From positions 62,001 to 126,000 of the forward strand of contig NZ_SDHW01000008.1 in the NCBI RefSeq assembly GCF_004118265.1: 64,000 nucleotides of DNA. The letters are read 5' to 3'. This DNA is from Lacibacter luteus (lineage in GTDB: Bacteria > Bacteroidota > Bacteroidia > Chitinophagales > Chitinophagaceae). Shown here one piece after another: positions 55,658-63,622 of this stretch. Both the position numbers and the translations under genes were made by a program. The notes below the pieces were generated by a model. That model worked only from the letters and a program-made list of their open reading frames with translations. It was not told where the DNA came from and ran no database searches. Every line of letters begins with the position of its first letter. Within the stretch, counting starts at the first letter, position 1.

Positions 55658-55717
55658 AAGCAGGTAGGGTACTTCAAAACTTCAGACAAAGTCAGAAGGA
55701 ATTCAACCTGCTTTTTT
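55658..55717 (+). terminator. Terminator-like hairpin in the leuA leader (possible attenuator)
   Basis: AAGCAGGT (55658-55665) pairs with ACCTGCTT (55706-55713), enclosing an inner hairpin (CTTCAGAC with GTCAGAAG, one mismatch), and a run of six T follows at 55712-55717. The leuA ATG is 20 bp further on. The upstream gene is divergent, so no transcript from the left needs ending here. A regulatory, attenuator-like role for leuA is therefore likely. No leader peptide was found. Confidence 0.55.
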
Positions 55718-58127: not shown

Positions 58128-58131
58128 AAGG

Positions 58132-58205
58132 TATAAGGCGTAAGGTATAGGGAAGAAGGAAGGCAGTGAAGACCTTAAACCTTATACCCTAAACCCTCAA
58201 CCTTC
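58132..58205. repeat. Two-armed degenerate heptamer repeat between leuB and the ilv leader
   Basis: A purine-rich arm (AAGGTATAAGGCGTAAGGTA) is followed by a pyrimidine-rich arm built from ACCYTAA-like words (ACCTTAAACCTTATACCCTA and following). The arms are imperfectly complementary. A similar arrangement occurs inside the ydiJ-like gene at 37450-37550 and, with other words, at 62932-63020. Confidence 0.55.
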
Positions 58206-58214
58206 AAAAAGTTC

Positions 58215-58245
58215 TTTGTTTATTTTCAATAAGGCGGTATATTCG
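58215..58245 (+). promoter_or_regulatory. Bacteroidota-type promoter of the ilv operon
   Basis: TTTG at 58215-58218 and TATATTCG at 58238-58245 are exactly 19 bp apart, matching the TTTG-N19-TAnnTTTG consensus with one mismatch. The expected start near 58251 leaves only about a dozen bases before the leader-peptide ATG at 58264, as in classical attenuation leaders. Confidence 0.7.
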
Positions 58246-58263
58246 TTCCTCGAACAACGCACT

Positions 58264-58365
58264 ATGTTGAAAAGCAAATTAAATAATCTACTACTAGCAA
58301 ACACAATTGTCATTGTGGTAGTCATTATTATTCCTGCTCTCAACGGAGGTGTTAGTTGTATGTAA
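58264..58365 (+). CDS. Branched-chain amino acid leader peptide (attenuator)
   Basis: 33 codons, of which 16 encode Leu, Ile or Val. Three consecutive CTA leucine codons (codons 9-11) precede the run IVIVVVIIIP (codons 15-24). The VVVIIIP stretch is also present in the E. coli ilvGMEDA leader peptide as I recall it. The peptide acts by its translation: ribosomes stalling on Leu, Val or Ile codons change folding of the downstream RNA. It starts just after a near-consensus promoter and ends 27 bp before a strong terminator preceding ilvE. Confidence 0.85.
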   Translation: MLKSKLNNLLLANTIVIVVVIIIPALNGGVSCM

Positions 58366-58401
58366 AACGAATTTTAAAATTAAACATAACGACCCGCCTC
58401 C
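58345..58401 (+). promoter_or_regulatory. Candidate antiterminator of the ilv attenuator
   Basis: GGAGGTG (58345-58351, inside the last codons of the leader peptide) can pair with CGCCTCC (58395-58401), the 5' arm of the terminator, over seven bases with one G-U. A ribosome stalled in the Ile/Val run (codons up to 58332) would leave GGAGGTG free; one reaching the stop codon would cover it. The two structures are mutually exclusive. Confidence 0.65.
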
Positions 58402-58419
58402 AAAAGAGGCGGGTTTTTT
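58393..58419 (+). terminator. Attenuator terminator before ilvE
   Basis: CCCGCCTC (58393-58400) pairs perfectly with GAGGCGGG (58406-58413), loop CAAAA, followed by six T. It lies 27 bp after the leader-peptide stop and 26 bp before the ilvE ATG, so it controls read-through into the ilv operon. Confidence 0.92.
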
Positions 58420-58445
58420 ATTACCGCAAAAAAACGAAACAGCGT

Positions 58446-59372
58446 ATGGCGTCTTATTACAACAACGAAACAATTCTGTATCTCAACGGAGAGTTTGTAA
58501 AAGCTGCTGAAGCAAAAATGGATTACTACAGTCAGAGTTTTCATTATGGCTACAGCGTGTTTGAAGGCATCCGTTCTTACAGAACAGTGAATGGTGAAAC
58601 GAAAATTTTTAAAGCCAAAGAGCATTACGATCGTTTACAACGTTCGGCTGAGTTGGTGAACCTTCCTTATCACTGGACAACCGAGGAGTTAACGGAAGTA
58701 ACCTACGAAGTGTTGAAGCGCAATGATCTGCAGGATGCTTATATCCGTCCCGTAGTATTTGCACCGGCCAACATGAGTTTTGTGCAGAATGAAAAATCGT
58801 TTTTAGTAATTGAAGTATGGGCCATGCAACCATTTCTCGGCGATAAGTTGTTGCGCATTATGACCAGCTCGTTTGAACGTCCGAATCCAAAAGCGTTCAA
58901 GATCGAAGCAAAAGCAGCAGGTCATTATGTAAACTCATTGCTCGCCAGTCATGAAGCAAAAGCAAAGGGATACGATGAAGCATTGTTACTCGATATGAAT
59001 GGCAATGCAGCAGAAGCACCCGGTGCTAATTTGTTTTATGAAAAGGATGGCAAACTGTTTACACCCGCAAAAGGAAATATTCTGCCGGGTATTACAAGAG
59101 CAACCGTGTTTGAAATATGTGAGGAGTTAGGAATAGAAGTGCAAGAAAAGTTCTTTACAGTGGATGAGTTGAAACAGGCAGATGCTGCTTTCTATTGTGG
59201 CACTGCAGCAGAAGTGATCGGCTTTGACAGTTTGGATGATTACAAGTTTCCGTTAAAGTGGGAAGAGAGTGTGAGCAGGAAAATTCAACAGGCGTATAAA
59301 AACCTGGTAGTTGAAAAAGCAATTGAACCACAAATACAGGAAGACGCAAAGAAGCACGAAGTGGTAGCATAA
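58446..59372 (+). CDS. ilvE: Branched-chain amino acid aminotransferase
   Basis: 308 residues from ATG 58446 (MASYYNNETILYLNGEFV); earlier in-frame starts would overlap the attenuator terminator. A fold-type IV PLP enzyme: YGYSVFEGIRSY, the PLP Lys region in FKIEAKAAGHYVNSLLAS, EAPGANLFYEKDGKL and the C-terminal CGTAAEVIGFDSLDDYKF. It interconverts Leu, Ile and Val with their 2-oxoacids. It is the first structural gene behind the attenuator and 83 bp before ilvD. Confidence 0.92.
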   Translation: MASYYNNETILYLNGEFVKAAEAKMDYYSQSFHYGYSVFEGIRSYRTVNGETKIFKAKEHYDRLQRSAELVNLPYHWTTEELTEVTYEVLKRNDLQDAYIRPVVFAPANMSFVQNEKSFLVIEVWAMQPFLGDKLLRIMTSSFERPNPKAFKIEAKAAGHYVNSLLASHEAKAKGYDEALLLDMNGNAAEAPGANLFYEKDGKLFTPAKGNILPGITRATVFEICEELGIEVQEKFFTVDELKQADAAFYCGTAAEVIGFDSLDDYKFPLKWEESVSRKIQQAYKNLVVEKAIEPQIQEDAKKHEVVA

Positions 59373-59455: not shown

Positions 59456-61138
59456 ATGGCTGAATTAAACAAGTATTCGAAAGTATTAACGCAAGATGAA
59501 ACACAACCGGCTGCACAGGCTATGTTGTATGGTATTGGCTTAACAGAAGAAGATCTCAAAAAAGCGCAGGTGGGTATTGCAAGTATGGGTTACGATGGTA
59601 ACACTTGTAACATGCACCTGAACGATCTGGCAAAAGTGGTGAAAGAAGGTGTGTGGCAAAATGAATTGGTTGGTTTGATCTTTAATACAATCGGCATCAG
59701 CGATGGTATCAGCAATGGTACCGATGGTATGCGTTATTCATTGGTGAGTCGTGATTTAATTGCAGACAGTATTGAAAGCGTGTGCGGTGGTTTTTATTAC
59801 GATGGTTTAATTGCATTACCTGGTTGCGATAAAAATATGCCTGGTGCTATTATGGCAATGGGTCGTTTGAACCGTCCTTCCATTATGGTGTACGGTGGAA
59901 CTATTGCTCCCGGTCATCATAAAGGCGAAGAACTCAACATCATTTCTGCATTTGAAGCGTTGGGTAAAAAATTAGCAGGTGCAATTACACCTGAAGATTT
60001 TAAAGAAGTGGTGAAGCATAGTTGTCCGGGTGCAGGTGCATGCGGTGGTATGTACACAGCAAACACCATGGCTTCTGCAATTGAAGCATTGGGTATGAGT
60101 TTGCCTTACTCATCATCAAACCCTGCTATTAGTGATGATAAAAAGAATGAGTGTTTAGATGCAGGAAGAGCAATAAAAGTGTTGTTAGAAAAAGATATTA
60201 AGCCAAGAGATATCATGACGAAGAAAGCATTTGAAAATGCCATCGTCACCATCATGATCTTTGGCGGAAGTACAAATGCCGTATTGCATTTGATCGCTAT
60301 GGCGAAAAGTGTTGGAGTTGAATTAACTCAGGACGATTTCCAACGCATCAGCGACAAAACACCGGTGCTTGCTGATTTTAAACCAAGCGGTAAATTTTTG
60401 ATGCAGGAATTACATGCACATGGTGGTGTACCTGCTGTAATGAAATATTTGCTGGATAAAGGTTTGTTGTATGGTGATTGTATAACCGTAACTGGTAAAA
60501 CAATTGCAGAAAATTTAGCGGACATCGAACCGATCAACTTCGAAACACAAAAAATTATATTCCCGTTAGAGCAACCATTGAAAGTAACAGGTCACTTGCA
60601 AATTCTTTACGGCAATCTTGCTGAGAAAGGAAGTGTAGCAAAGATCAGTGGTAAAGAAGGCGAACGTTTTGAAGGACCAGCACGTGTGTTTGATGGAGAG
60701 AAAGACCTGGTAGCAGGTATTGCAAACGGAAGAGTAAAGAAAGGTGATGTTGTAGTGATCAGGTACGAAGGACCAAAAGGTGCACCGGGTATGCCCGAGA
60801 TGTTGAAACCAACTTCAGCAATTATGGGTGCAGGTTTGGGCAAAGATGTGGCGTTGATCACTGATGGAAGATTCAGCGGTGGTTCACATGGTTTCGTCGT
60901 CGGTCACATCACTCCGGAAGCATTTGAAGGTGGCTTGATTGCATTGGTACAAGACGATGATGTGATTGAACTGGATGCAAGTAATAACAAGATCACGCTT
61001 AAAGTAGCTGACGAAGTGATTGCAGAAAGACGTAAGAGTTGGAAACAACCTGCATTAAAAGTGAACAAAGGTGTATTGTATAAATATGCCATGTGCGTGA
61101 AAGATGCTTCACAAGGTTGTGTAACAGACGAAGCATAA
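59456..61138 (+). CDS. ilvD: Dihydroxy-acid dehydratase
   Basis: 560 residues. Iron-sulfur cluster cysteines are in [19 protein letters not shown] and [18 protein letters not shown]; the C-terminal [22 protein letters not shown] motif is standard. The enzyme dehydrates 2,3-dihydroxy-isovalerate and -methylvalerate to the 2-oxoacid precursors of Val, Leu and Ile. Length and motifs match the family. The gene lies inside the ilvEDBNC operon, 20 bp before ilvB. Confidence 0.96.
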
Positions 61139-61158: not shown

Positions 61159-62925
61159 ATGATTAAAATAAGTGAAATGGAAACACTCACAATAAAAGAA
61201 ACGAAAAAGCAAGTGGAAGAAAAAAAATCCATTAGTGGTAGCGTAGCAGTGTTAGATGCGTTACTCAACGAAAACGTAAACACAGTATTCGGTTATCCGG
61301 GTGGTGCAATCATGCCTATCTACGATGCATTGTATGATTACAATGATCGTTTGGAACATATTCTTGTTCGTCATGAGCAAGGTGCAATTCATGCAGCACA
61401 GGGTTATGCAAGAGCAAGTGGTAAAACAGGTGTTGTGTTTGCAACAAGTGGTCCCGGTGCAACAAATCTTGTAACAGGATTGGCAGATGCAATGATCGAT
61501 TCAACACCGGTTGTATGTATAACCGGACAAGTGTTTGCACACTTACTTGGTACTGATGCATTCCAGGAAACTGATGTGATCAACATTACAACTCCTGTTA
61601 CAAAATGGAATCACCAGGTAACAGATGCAAGTGAAATTCCTGCTGCATTGGCAAAAGCATTTTATATCGCAGGCAGTGGTCGTCCCGGTCCTGTGTTGAT
61701 CGATATTACCAAGAATGCACAAATGCAGTTGTTCGAATATGAAGGTTACAAGAAGTGTGAACATATCCGCAGCTATCGTCCAAAGCCGATCGTTCGTAAA
61801 GAATATGTGGAAGAAGCTGCAAAGCTTATTAACGCAGCAGAACGTCCTTTTGTGATCTTCGGACAAGGTGTGATACTTGGGAAAGCAGAAAAAGAATTCA
61901 AAGCTTTTATTGAAAAAGCTGGTATTCCTGCTGCATGGACCATCATGGGTATGAGTGCTATTCCAACCGATCATCCGTTGGGTGTTGGTATGTTGGGTAT
62001 GCATGGTAACTACGGCCCCAACTTGTTGACGAATGAATGTGATGTGTTGATCGCTATTGGTATGCGTTTCGATGATCGTGTAACCGGCCGTTTAGATAAA
62101 TATGCCAAGCAGGCGAAAGTGATTCATCTCGATATTGATCCTGCAGAAATTGATAAGAATGTAAAATCAACCGTTCCTGTTTGGGGCGATTGTAAAGAAA
62201 CATTACCACTGCTCACTGCATTAGTGGAAAGCAAAGTGTATCCGCAATGGTTACAGAAATTCCACGACTGCATGGAAAAAGAAAAGTCAACCTGTATTGA
62301 ACCTGAGATGAATCCTGCAGGCGATATCTTAACCATGGGTGAAGTAATTAAAACACTCAACGAGTTAACAGATGGTAATGCCATTGTTGTAACGGATGTT
62401 GGTCAGCACCAGATGGTGGCCTGCCGTTATGCAAAAATGAATCACAGCAAAAGCAATATCACCAGTGGTGGTTTAGGAACGATGGGTTATGCATTGCCTG
62501 CAGCTATTGGTGCAGCGTATGGCGATCCAACACGTACAACTGTTGCAGTAATTGGTGATGGTGGTTTCCAGATGACGTTGCAGGAGTTGGGAACGATCAT
62601 GCAGTTTAAACCAAACGTAAAAATTTTAATTCTGAATAACCAGTTCTTAGGAATGGTGCGCCAGTGGCAGCAATTGTTCCATGAAAAACGTTATTCGTTT
62701 GTTGATATCACAAGTCCTGATTTTGTGCAGGTGGCGAAAGGTTATTATATCGATGGACAACGTATCAGTGAACGTTCACAATTAAAAGCTGCATTGAAAA
62801 CAATGCTCGATCATGAAGGCAGCTATCTGCTGGAAGTGATGGTTGGTAAAGAAAACAATGTATTCCCGATGGTGCCACAGGGCAGGGGCGTTGCAGAAAT
62901 TGTATTAAGTAAAGAAGAAATCTAA
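61159..62925 (+). CDS. ilvB: Acetohydroxyacid synthase, large (catalytic) subunit
   Basis: 588 residues from ATG 61159; a second ATG at 61177 is possible, and the longer open frame into ilvD is spurious. It binds thiamin diphosphate: VRHEQGAIHAAQGYARASG with the catalytic Glu and GDGGFQMTLQELGTIMQF followed by NN. It joins two pyruvates, or pyruvate and 2-oxobutyrate, in the first common step of Val/Ile synthesis. It works with the regulatory subunit encoded next. A structured spacer (62932-63020) separates them. Confidence 0.95.
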   Translation: MIKISEMETLTIKETKKQVEEKKSISGSVAVLDALLNENVNTVFGYPGGAIMPIYDALYDYNDRLEHILVRHEQGAIHAAQGYARASGKTGVVFATSGPGATNLVTGLADAMIDSTPVVCITGQVFAHLLGTDAFQETDVINITTPVTKWNHQVTDASEIPAALAKAFYIAGSGRPGPVLIDITKNAQMQLFEYEGYKKCEHIRSYRPKPIVRKEYVEEAAKLINAAERPFVIFGQGVILGKAEKEFKAFIEKAGIPAAWTIMGMSAIPTDHPLGVGMLGMHGNYGPNLLTNECDVLIAIGMRFDDRVTGRLDKYAKQAKVIHLDIDPAEIDKNVKSTVPVWGDCKETLPLLTALVESKVYPQWLQKFHDCMEKEKSTCIEPEMNPAGDILTMGEVIKTLNELTDGNAIVVTDVGQHQMVACRYAKMNHSKSNITSGGLGTMGYALPAAIGAAYGDPTRTTVAVIGDGGFQMTLQELGTIMQFKPNVKILILNNQFLGMVRQWQQLFHEKRYSFVDITSPDFVQVAKGYYIDGQRISERSQLKAALKTMLDHEGSYLLEVMVGKENNVFPMVPQGRGVAEIVLSKEEI

Positions 62926-63031: not shown

Positions 63032-63622
63032 ATGCAAAAACAGGAATTTACCATAACGGTATATACAGAGAACCAGATCGGTTTATTGAACCGTATCGCT
63101 ATTCTCTTTTCCAAACGAAAGATCAATATCGACAGTTTAAATACATCACCAAGTGAAGTAGACAGTGTGCATCGTTTCACCATTGTGATCAACGAAACAG
63201 AAGAAGTGGTGCGTAAACTCTGTCGCCAAATTGAAAAACAAGTGGAAGTGTTGAAAGCGTATTACAACACCAATGAAGAAATCATCTGGCAGGAACTGGC
63301 TTTATACAAAGTGCCAACAGAGGTCATTGCTGAAGAAGTGAAAGTTGAACGTTTGTTGAGTCAGTATGGTGCAAAGGCTGTAGTGATCCGTAAAGATTAT
63401 ACTGTGTTTGAGGTAAGCGGGCAACGTGATGAAACAGATGCGTTCATTAAAGTATTGGAGCCGTACGGATTAATTGAATTTGTACGCAGCGCAAGAGTAG
63501 CGATCATTAAAGCAAGTGATGGCTTCCACAAAAAACTGAAAGAGTTTGAATACCGTGAGCCAAGTGAAGAAGTGATCGAGAACGAATATTTAGATAAGAA
63601 CGAAGAGGTGTTTGAAATGTAA
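63032..63622 (+). CDS. ilvN: Acetohydroxyacid synthase, small (regulatory) subunit
   Basis: 196 residues from ATG 63032 (a TTG three codons earlier is less likely). The N-terminal ACT domain is clear (FTITVYTENQIGLLNRIAILFSKRKINIDSLN), followed by the C-terminal AHAS small-subunit domain (ELALYKVPTE, VFEVSGQRDETDAFIKVLEPYGLIEFVRSARVAI). The subunit activates the catalytic subunit and gives valine feedback. It lies between ilvB and ilvC. Confidence 0.95.
   Translation: MQKQEFTITVYTENQIGLLNRIAILFSKRKINIDSLNTSPSEVDSVHRFTIVINETEEVVRKLCRQIEKQVEVLKAYYNTNEEIIWQELALYKVPTEVIAEEVKVERLLSQYGAKAVVIRKDYTVFEVSGQRDETDAFIKVLEPYGLIEFVRSARVAIIKASDGFHKKLKEFEYREPSEEVIENEYLDKNEEVFEM

Follow-up and report, generated by a model that had tools for sequence, protein, structure and literature searches.

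A probable ribosome-mediated attenuator of the ilvEDBN genes in Lacibacter luteus and comparable leaders across class Bacteroidia

The stretch of DNA analyzed here (the window) comprises 64,000 nucleotides of Lacibacter luteus (RefSeq assembly GCF_004118265.1, contig NZ_SDHW01000008.1, positions 62,001 to 126,000 of the forward strand) and carries the genes leuA, leuB, ilvE, ilvD, ilvB and ilvN in that order, as assigned with NCBIfam. Between leuB and ilvE lies an element that, judged from its sequence and from that of its relatives, is very probably a classical, ribosome-mediated transcription attenuator of ilvEDBN sensing charged tRNA-Ile and tRNA-Val (Ile, isoleucine; Val, valine). It consists of a promoter, a short leader open reading frame (ORF) with a run of Ile and Val codons, an arm within the last leader codons and a GC-rich terminator followed by a T tract. 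An earlier note, made from the letters of the window alone, had proposed such a leader, and the coordinates that it gave for promoter, leader, arm, terminator, T tract and ilvE start codon were all borne out when checked against the sequence (Table 1). The attenuator would also explain the presence of a short ORF that could escape gene callers.

Parts of the element and proposed mechanism

The promoter described in the note is present between leuB and ilvE, and translation of the 33-codon leader agrees with the note in yielding both the product of CTA-CTA-CTA, three leucine (Leu) codons, and the peptide IVIVVVIIIP. The arm in the last codons can indeed pair with the 5′ side of the terminator (GGAGGTG/CGCCTCC duplex, −13.4 kcal/mol), and the terminator itself, which stands with its six T ahead of ilvE, forms ten perfect pairs with a hairpin energy of −19.1 kcal/mol. 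The leader stop codon and the ilvE start codon are 80 nt apart, with the terminator in between.

In the proposed mechanism RNA polymerase would start about 10–15 nt before the leader ORF, as the position of the promoter box suggests, and a ribosome would begin to translate the leader. With ample Ile and Val the ribosome would reach the stop codon just behind GGAGGTG and cover the arm, whereupon the 5′ side of the terminator would pair with its own 3′ side and transcription would end before ilvE. With Ile or Val in short supply the ribosome would stall on IVIVVVIII, its leading edge just short of the arm, and the free arm would pair with the terminator's 5′ side the moment this has been synthesized, allowing transcription to continue into ilvEDBN. 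If the leader were not translated, it would fold on itself and the terminator would form. Four elements of this scheme are inferences: where transcription starts, that the leader is translated, that ribosome and polymerase are coupled, and that the switch answers to Ile and Val. The parts, their co-conservation and spacing, compensatory changes in the helices and, in silico, folds that depend on ribosome position are observations.

Conservation in genus and family

Close homologs of ilvE were found in 11 of 14 genomes of the genus (threshold 1e-120) and in 71 of 195 genomes of the family (1e-100), the latter drawn from a larger group; 3 are shared, which leaves 79 distinct. The analysis took in 78 upstream regions, all but that of G060, whose ilvE match lies at the edge of a contig. 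At 73 of these 78 ilvE loci a leader ORF with a run of Ile, Leu and Val codons is followed by a GC-rich terminator, and leader, arm and terminator are kept together in relatives, a comparison that the earlier note had proposed. The 73 sequences, 72 of them distinct, make up alignment A1. The remaining five loci (L014 in genome G012 of the same genus, L059, L063, L076 and L078) have no leader, and the terminator scan was empty there too, so that the outcome the note had named as damaging to attenuation, a terminator kept in relatives that have lost the codon run, was not seen among the 78 loci. One of the five genomes, G017 (L078), carries the family attenuator elsewhere, before a gene for a 98-residue ACT-domain protein about 0.5 Mb from ilvE on the same contig (L101). 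At L. cauensis locus L172 and in the same-genus genome G001, ilvE is 92% identical to that of the window.

A covariance model, R1, was built from the 73 aligned sequences. At an expectation value E ≤ 1e-5 it finds exactly one match per genome in 107 of the 195 family genomes; 66 of these are in the training set and 41 outside it, and an Ile/Val leader is present at all 41 of the latter matches (38 together with L099, L101 and L102). IlvD is found in 130 of the 195 genomes, and the two occur together in 103, R1 alone in 4, IlvD alone in 27 and neither in 61 (Fisher p = 3.6e-24, a value that is only a guide since the genomes are related). In 101 of the 103 genomes with both, ilvD lies on the same strand no more than 5 kb downstream of the R1 match. 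Moreover, the element precedes whichever gene comes first, be it ilvE, ilvD or the ACT-domain gene. At E ≤ 0.01 R1 has no match anywhere in genomes G012, G070, G090 and G151, nor in G005, G006 and G013, the genus genomes without a close ilvE homolog. A search of the Lacibacter luteus genome itself returned 46 matches at E ≤ 5, with the ilv element at 2.5e-18 and the next best at 0.0013; ten of the weaker matches (L084–L092 and L094) were inspected by eye and rejected as ilv leaders, none of them having an Ile/Val leader. R1 is a model usable for annotation in the family.

The region upstream was inspected in 26 of the 27 genomes with IlvD only (G202 was left out). In 12 of the 26 the leuB match ends 4–261 nt upstream of the ilvD or ilvE match and the leader detector described below finds nothing in the gap, an arrangement that has the appearance of a fusion of leu and ilv genes into one unit. 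Among the 26, L269 has a leader that R1 missed and L278 is doubtful. The leuB–ilv gap at L287, in the same-genus genome G012, is 70 nt, and no leader was detected in it.

Chance expectation

The detector reports a short ORF with at least 7 Ile, Leu or Val codons in 12 and a terminator close behind. It was applied to a set of named ilvE loci (77, of which L243 has no upstream sequence, leaving 76) at this threshold of 7/12, which is looser than the 8/12 used for the 73-locus family set. It is positive in 51 of the 76 upstream regions (50 with a second version of the detector), as compared with 1 of 76 reverse complements and, for ten block shuffles, 0–1 of 76 apiece; with the threshold set at 8 and 9 the shuffles give 0–2 and 0 of 76. 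The pairing of leader and terminator before ilvE exceeds chance. Within the window, 2 of 255 plus-strand tiles reach 10/12, both overlapping the ilv element, and 0 of 255 minus-strand tiles do so. At threshold 7 two other plus-strand tiles (39751 and 40001) and three minus-strand tiles (14751, 46251 and 46501) are also reported; their ORFs lack an ATG start or an Ile/Val run, look like chance and were set aside.

Codon content and sensed amino acids

Over the 20 codons that precede the arm, Ile occurs 6.6 times and Val 4.5 times on average, and all 73 loci have at least 2 of each. For Leu the average is 1.4, and 29 of the 73 have none. The expectation in the earlier note that Leu, Ile and Val codons would be conserved in relatives accordingly stands for Ile and Val and falls for Leu, which is ruled out as a conserved sensed amino acid; because so many leaders are without it, control by Leu would be local at most. 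Within the run, codon positions 1, 2 and 3 have column entropies of 0.63, 0.13 and 1.19 bits, a pattern to be expected from interchange of Ile, Val and Leu together with selection on the protein sequence. Where the coding part of A1 has gaps, they span three bases in 76 of 77 cells, although these cells stem from few events.

Spacing, ribosome position and competing folds

In 51 of 73 loci 11–12 nt separate the last codon of the run from the arm, and in 70 of 73 the stop codon follows the arm at a distance of 0–11 nt, a spacing of the kind that classical attenuation requires. A ribosome shields the P-site codon and 15 nt to each side of it. With this footprint, a ribosome that has the last run codon in its A site leaves the arm wholly free in 60 of 73 loci, and one that has the stop codon in its A site covers at least 75% of the arm in 71 of 73.

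The competing folds, whose computation had been proposed in the note, change with ribosome position as the model demands. For a window transcript ending before the 3′ arm of the terminator, an A site at any of codons 9–23 gives 7.0 expected antiterminator pairs, codon 24 gives 6.0 and codon 25 gives 2.4; from codon 26 onward there are zero antiterminator pairs and the terminator forms. The same behavior is found across the family: with the ribosome stalled in mid-run, before synthesis of the 3′ arm, the antiterminator dominates in 73 of 73 loci, and with the ribosome at the stop codon the terminator is predicted in 73 of 73. For naked RNA the terminator is predicted in 72 of 73 loci, and in 59 of 73 the arm is paired to sequence upstream of it. 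The minimum free energy (MFE) fold contains a possible protector hairpin that joins the leader start to the arm; among 10 genus sequences its positions are paired in 83% of cells, with slid versions of the helix reaching at most 55.3%.

Covariation of the helices

Compensatory changes, which the earlier note had suggested looking for, are clear in the terminator and modest in the antiterminator. Among the 72 distinct sequences, 6 of the 9 terminator pairs are changed on both sides, and 25 cells are so changed, whereas shuffles give 2.6 and slid controls 5 or fewer. For the antiterminator, 91.6% of cells are paired versus at most 62.6% in slid versions, and its covariation score of 0.080 exceeds those of the slid versions (at most 0.047) and is matched by 0 of 500 shuffles. 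Because the shuffles leave relatedness in place, we rate the support for the antiterminator as moderate. In a swap test the arms paired with their own terminators at a mean of −16.14 kcal/mol and with foreign ones at −15.16 kcal/mol, and 0 of 10000 permutations were as good. Matched departures of arm and terminator are found at L066 (CAGAGGAGC with GCTTCTCTG), L046 (GGCGGG with CCCGCC), L023 (AGAGGTGG with CCGCCTCT) and L065 (TGCAGGAGG with CCTCCTGCA). RNAalifold, run on the full-leader alignment, returned the terminator only and left the ORF part, where the alignment is gappy, without structure.

Alternative explanations

Since leuB lies upstream, a terminator is to be expected behind it, and as a promoter is present the region could be read as an ordinary leuB terminator and an ilv promoter of constitutive type, between which a short ORF lies by chance. 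This is very unlikely: the terminator lies downstream of the ilv promoter and would cut off a constitutive one, 73 of 78 loci share the Ile/Val ORF, the arm and their spacing, with the detector at 2 of 76 or fewer in any shuffle, and elsewhere in the family the element is found immediately ahead of ilvD. We attach just as little weight to the view that the product of the ORF is a small, hydrophobic membrane peptide with a function of its own, any effect on ilv being secondary. The peptide IVIVVVIIIP is strongly hydrophobic and the second codon positions are almost fixed, as such a view would have it, but the run is only about 10–12 residues long, its V, I and L interchange, and the distance of the stop codon behind the arm stays at 0–11 nt in 70 of 73 loci. 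Moreover, equal anatomy before his, thr and pheA genes carries histidine (His), threonine (Thr)/Ile or phenylalanine (Phe)/tyrosine (Tyr) codons, so that the coded residue follows the pathway. The least credible of these explanations makes GGAGG an internal Shine-Dalgarno-like pause site, or has the leader control translation of ilvE, and dispenses with an antiterminator arm. GGAGG is nearly invariant across the aligned loci, which favors it, but in several loci (L066, L046 and L023) the leader arm departs together with the terminator 5′ arm from CCTCC, and the leader stop codon is separated from ilvE by 80 nt and the terminator. Shine-Dalgarno pairing is, in addition, little used by Bacteroidota.

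A fourth explanation accepts attenuation and supposes that in Lacibacter luteus it is mainly Leu, or all three branched-chain amino acids equally, that are sensed. CTA-CTA-CTA lies in the leader, a Leu triplet is also present in leaders L005 and L006, and in the fold model a stall at the CTA triplet likewise frees the arm; against this, Leu is missing in 29 of 73 loci where Ile and Val are present in all, and leuAB lie upstream of the attenuator. We regard this explanation as unlikely.

Several observations weigh against an attenuator that senses Ile and Val. The element is missing from five ilvE loci, that of G012 in the same genus included, and among the 130 family genomes with IlvD there are 27 in which R1 finds nothing at E ≤ 1e-5. 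In the 90 nt scanned upstream of the leader start the promoter pattern is absent from 27 of 73 family loci. Less than 75% of the arm is free at the last run codon in 9 of 73 loci, and at L041 less than half of it is covered at the stop codon. Antiterminator cells changed on both sides number 6 versus 1.1 in shuffles, but two slid controls are higher (12 and 7), and the 2 antiterminator pairs changed on both sides are reached by 105 of 500 shuffles; at L033, L050 and L071 pairing with the own terminator is weaker than that of canonical arms. The protector hairpin has no covariation in the 10 genus sequences. Finally, for full-length RNA at equilibrium the stalled state favors the antiterminator in only 22 of 73 loci, and in the window it is not favored for stalls at the last three Ile codons. 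The switch must therefore act through the order of synthesis, as it does in its textbook relatives.

Relation to known attenuators

The leader ilvL of the Escherichia coli ilvXGMEDA operon (b3766 of strain MG1655) resembles the element in having a 32-residue leader peptide with VVVIIIP, in an arm in its last codons (GTGCGGGG) able, by eye, to pair with the 5′ side of a GC-rich terminator, and in a U tract with ilv genes downstream. It differs in that the arm starts, by eye, about 5 nt after the Ile codons, as compared with 11–12 nt as the family mode, and in that the first genes are ilvX and ilvG, here ilvE. The statement in the earlier note that VVVIIIP occurs in the E. coli leader proved right when checked against MG1655. 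The exact heptamer is found in 31 of 73 family leaders, and we read its occurrence in both E. coli and the family as putative convergence from shared composition, the comparison having covered the heptamer.

The Rfam families Thr_leader (RF00506), Phe_leader (RF01859), Leu_leader (RF00512) and Trp_leader (RF00513) describe the same type of device. The window element scores 20.4, 20, 16.3 and 16 bits against them, with gathering scores of 55, 55, 50 and 41, and is a member of none. Over the whole window Rfam gave zero matches at gathering score, riboswitches and other structured RNAs included. Bacteroid-trp RNA (RF01692), which we take to be a Trp leader, left the window unmatched as well.

That RNA is presented in a comparative-genomics study as a cis-regulatory candidate in Bacteroidetes (PMC2864571). 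Within the same phylum as Lacibacter luteus, a study of Flavobacterium psychrophilum describes strong clues for leader-peptide attenuation upstream of amino-acid operons and places pheA and hisG among the conserved structured 5′ elements of that species (PMC9723704); neither 'ilv' nor 'isoleucine' was found in the main text of that paper, its supplement aside. Short ORFs reminiscent of attenuation leaders are mentioned for Bacteroides in another report (PMC7366714), and comparative work on attenuation cited in PMC4833913 may overlap in part with ours. Among the literature matches listed, none concerns an ilv attenuator in Bacteroidota by title or abstract. The mechanism proposed for the ilv genes here is the textbook one, and attenuation of amino-acid operons in a flavobacterium is already in print (PMC9723704).

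Leaders elsewhere in Bacteroidia

At E ≤ 0.01 R1 has matches in 62 of 198 genomes of the order and 99 of 395 genomes of the class, of which 30 class loci were read. Five are strong family ilv elements. In 24 of the other 25 (L109–L133), by eye, the leader carries a run that matches the pathway, the exception being L114. By downstream gene there are 14 leaders before ilv genes including ilvA, 4 before hisG, 3 before thrA-like genes, 2 before hydroxylase genes and 1 before pheA; nine of the downstream genes were checked with Pfam (L109 with an ACT score of 25.7 at a cut-off of 27) and the rest were named from the resemblance of their translated starts. Positives of the detector in the named set include loci of Flavobacterium, Chryseobacterium, Pedobacter, Aequorivita and Fulvivirga, and 26 of the 76 named ilvE loci are negative with the version that is positive in 50, other Flavobacterium, Chryseobacterium and Pedobacter species among them. 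Candidate leaders of this kind are, as read from these loci, spread through class Bacteroidia. The statement in the earlier note that they are best documented in Proteobacteria is to be corrected to this extent, in that the type is also found in several families of Bacteroidia. A His-run pattern has 129 matches in the Lacibacter luteus genome.

Upstream of genes for biopterin-dependent aromatic amino acid hydroxylase (PF00351), 20 of which were found in 149 Bacteroidia genomes, we observed leaders with at least 3 Tyr codons in 8 (for example MTSALRNAYYYYPSSVYHGVAGVCKR) together with a terminator at 9 of 20 genes, as compared with 0 of 20 reverse complements and 1 of 100 shuffles. The leader at L306 is mixed, with His and Tyr. 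This suggests that phenylalanine hydroxylase may serve tyrosine biosynthesis under tyrosine attenuation, and an earlier report of tyrosine leaders before phenylalanine hydroxylase was not found in a limited literature search. If true, the enzyme would be a biosynthetic one induced by tyrosine starvation in the phylum.

We hold it somewhat more likely than not that ribosome-mediated attenuators form a wide-ranging suite in Bacteroidia, at ilv, his, thr and pheA genes and, as a Tyr-codon leader, before phenylalanine hydroxylase. Translation in Bacteroidota starts largely without Shine-Dalgarno pairing, and the start signals differ from those of E. coli. Such a suite, if true, would imply that the first ribosome is tightly coupled to RNA polymerase in the phylum, and a family-wide ilv attenuator with measurable geometry offers a ready system for the question of transcription–translation coupling in Bacteroidota. 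For specialists, the reach of these leaders and the tyrosine leaders should be of greater interest than the single Lacibacter luteus locus.

Layout of the locus and further observations

Table 1. Features of the ilv region of the window (positions are those of the window) and groups of related loci in other genomes
Feature	Position or loci	Strand	Basis
Promoter, Bacteroidota type: TTTG 58215-58218, 19-nt spacer, TATATTCG 58238-58245	58215..58245	+	sequence
Leader-start region able to pair with arm region; possible protector, segment 1	58254..58270	+	MFE fold
Leader ORF, 33 codons and TAA, translated MLKSKLNNLLLANTIVIVVVIIIPALNGGVSCM; ATG 58264, TAA 58363-58365	58264..58365	+	translation
Three Leu codons CTA-CTA-CTA, lineage-specific	58288..58296	+	sequence; Leu missing in 29/73 loci
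Putative Ile/Val control codon run IVIVVVIII	58306..58332	+	at least 2 Ile and 2 Val in 20 codons before arm, 73/73 loci
Putative antiterminator 5′ arm (segment 2) GGAGGTG, within last leader codons	58345..58351	+	pairs with CGCCTCC 58395-58401
Predicted intrinsic terminator hairpin (segments 3 and 4), perfect 10-bp stem 58391-58400 / 58406-58415	58391..58415	+	folding, covariation
T tract, six T	58414..58419	+	sequence
ilvE, first gene under the proposed control, ATG 58446	58446..59372	+	NCBIfam branched-chain amino acid transaminase
ilvD	59456..61138	+	NCBIfam
ilvB, acetolactate synthase large subunit; start ATG 61159 or 61177	61159..62925	+	NCBIfam match 61171-62922
ilvN, acetolactate synthase small subunit; start ATG 63032 assumed	63032..63622	+	NCBIfam
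Close leuB-ilv gaps without detected leader	L262, L264, L265, L267, L270, L274, L277, L281, L283-L286		
His-run leaders and terminator before hisG	L117, L120, L128, L129		L117 Pfam-checked
Thr/Ile-run leaders and terminator before aspartokinase/thrA-like gene	L121, L126, L133		L121 Pfam-checked
Phe/Tyr-run leader and terminator before pheA	L125		Pfam-checked
Ile-run leader and terminator before ilvA	L124		Pfam-checked
Tyr-run leaders before hydroxylase	L297, L302, L304, L305, L306, L311, L312 (= L130 gene), L314, L315 (= L132 gene)		

The promoter is labeled as of Bacteroidota type by what we take to be the consensus. A pattern of TTT(N), 17–22 nt and TANNTTNG precedes the leader start by no more than 90 nt in 46 of the 73 family loci versus 32 of 1460 shuffles, and in these 46 loci the median distance from promoter box to leader start is 17 nt. 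In the same place, a longer sequence, AGTTCTTT...GGCGG(G)TGTATATTCG, was noted upstream of the leader (window 58210-58245 and family promoter regions) that is, by eye, more conserved than a bare promoter.

Directly before leuA the window has a hairpin GCAGGT...ACCTGC with six T (55660-55717). Eight genus loci were taken for comparison and leuA was located in 5; the hairpin is kept in 4 of the 6 aligned sequences, the window included. A leader peptide is not evident there and no Rfam match stands out, and the hairpin could be another attenuator, of a different kind. Between leuB and the ilv promoter lies an imperfect inverted repeat, GGTATAAGG...CCTTATACCC (window 58128-58206), in the place of which L006 and L007 have other sequence and which looks like an inserted repeat element.

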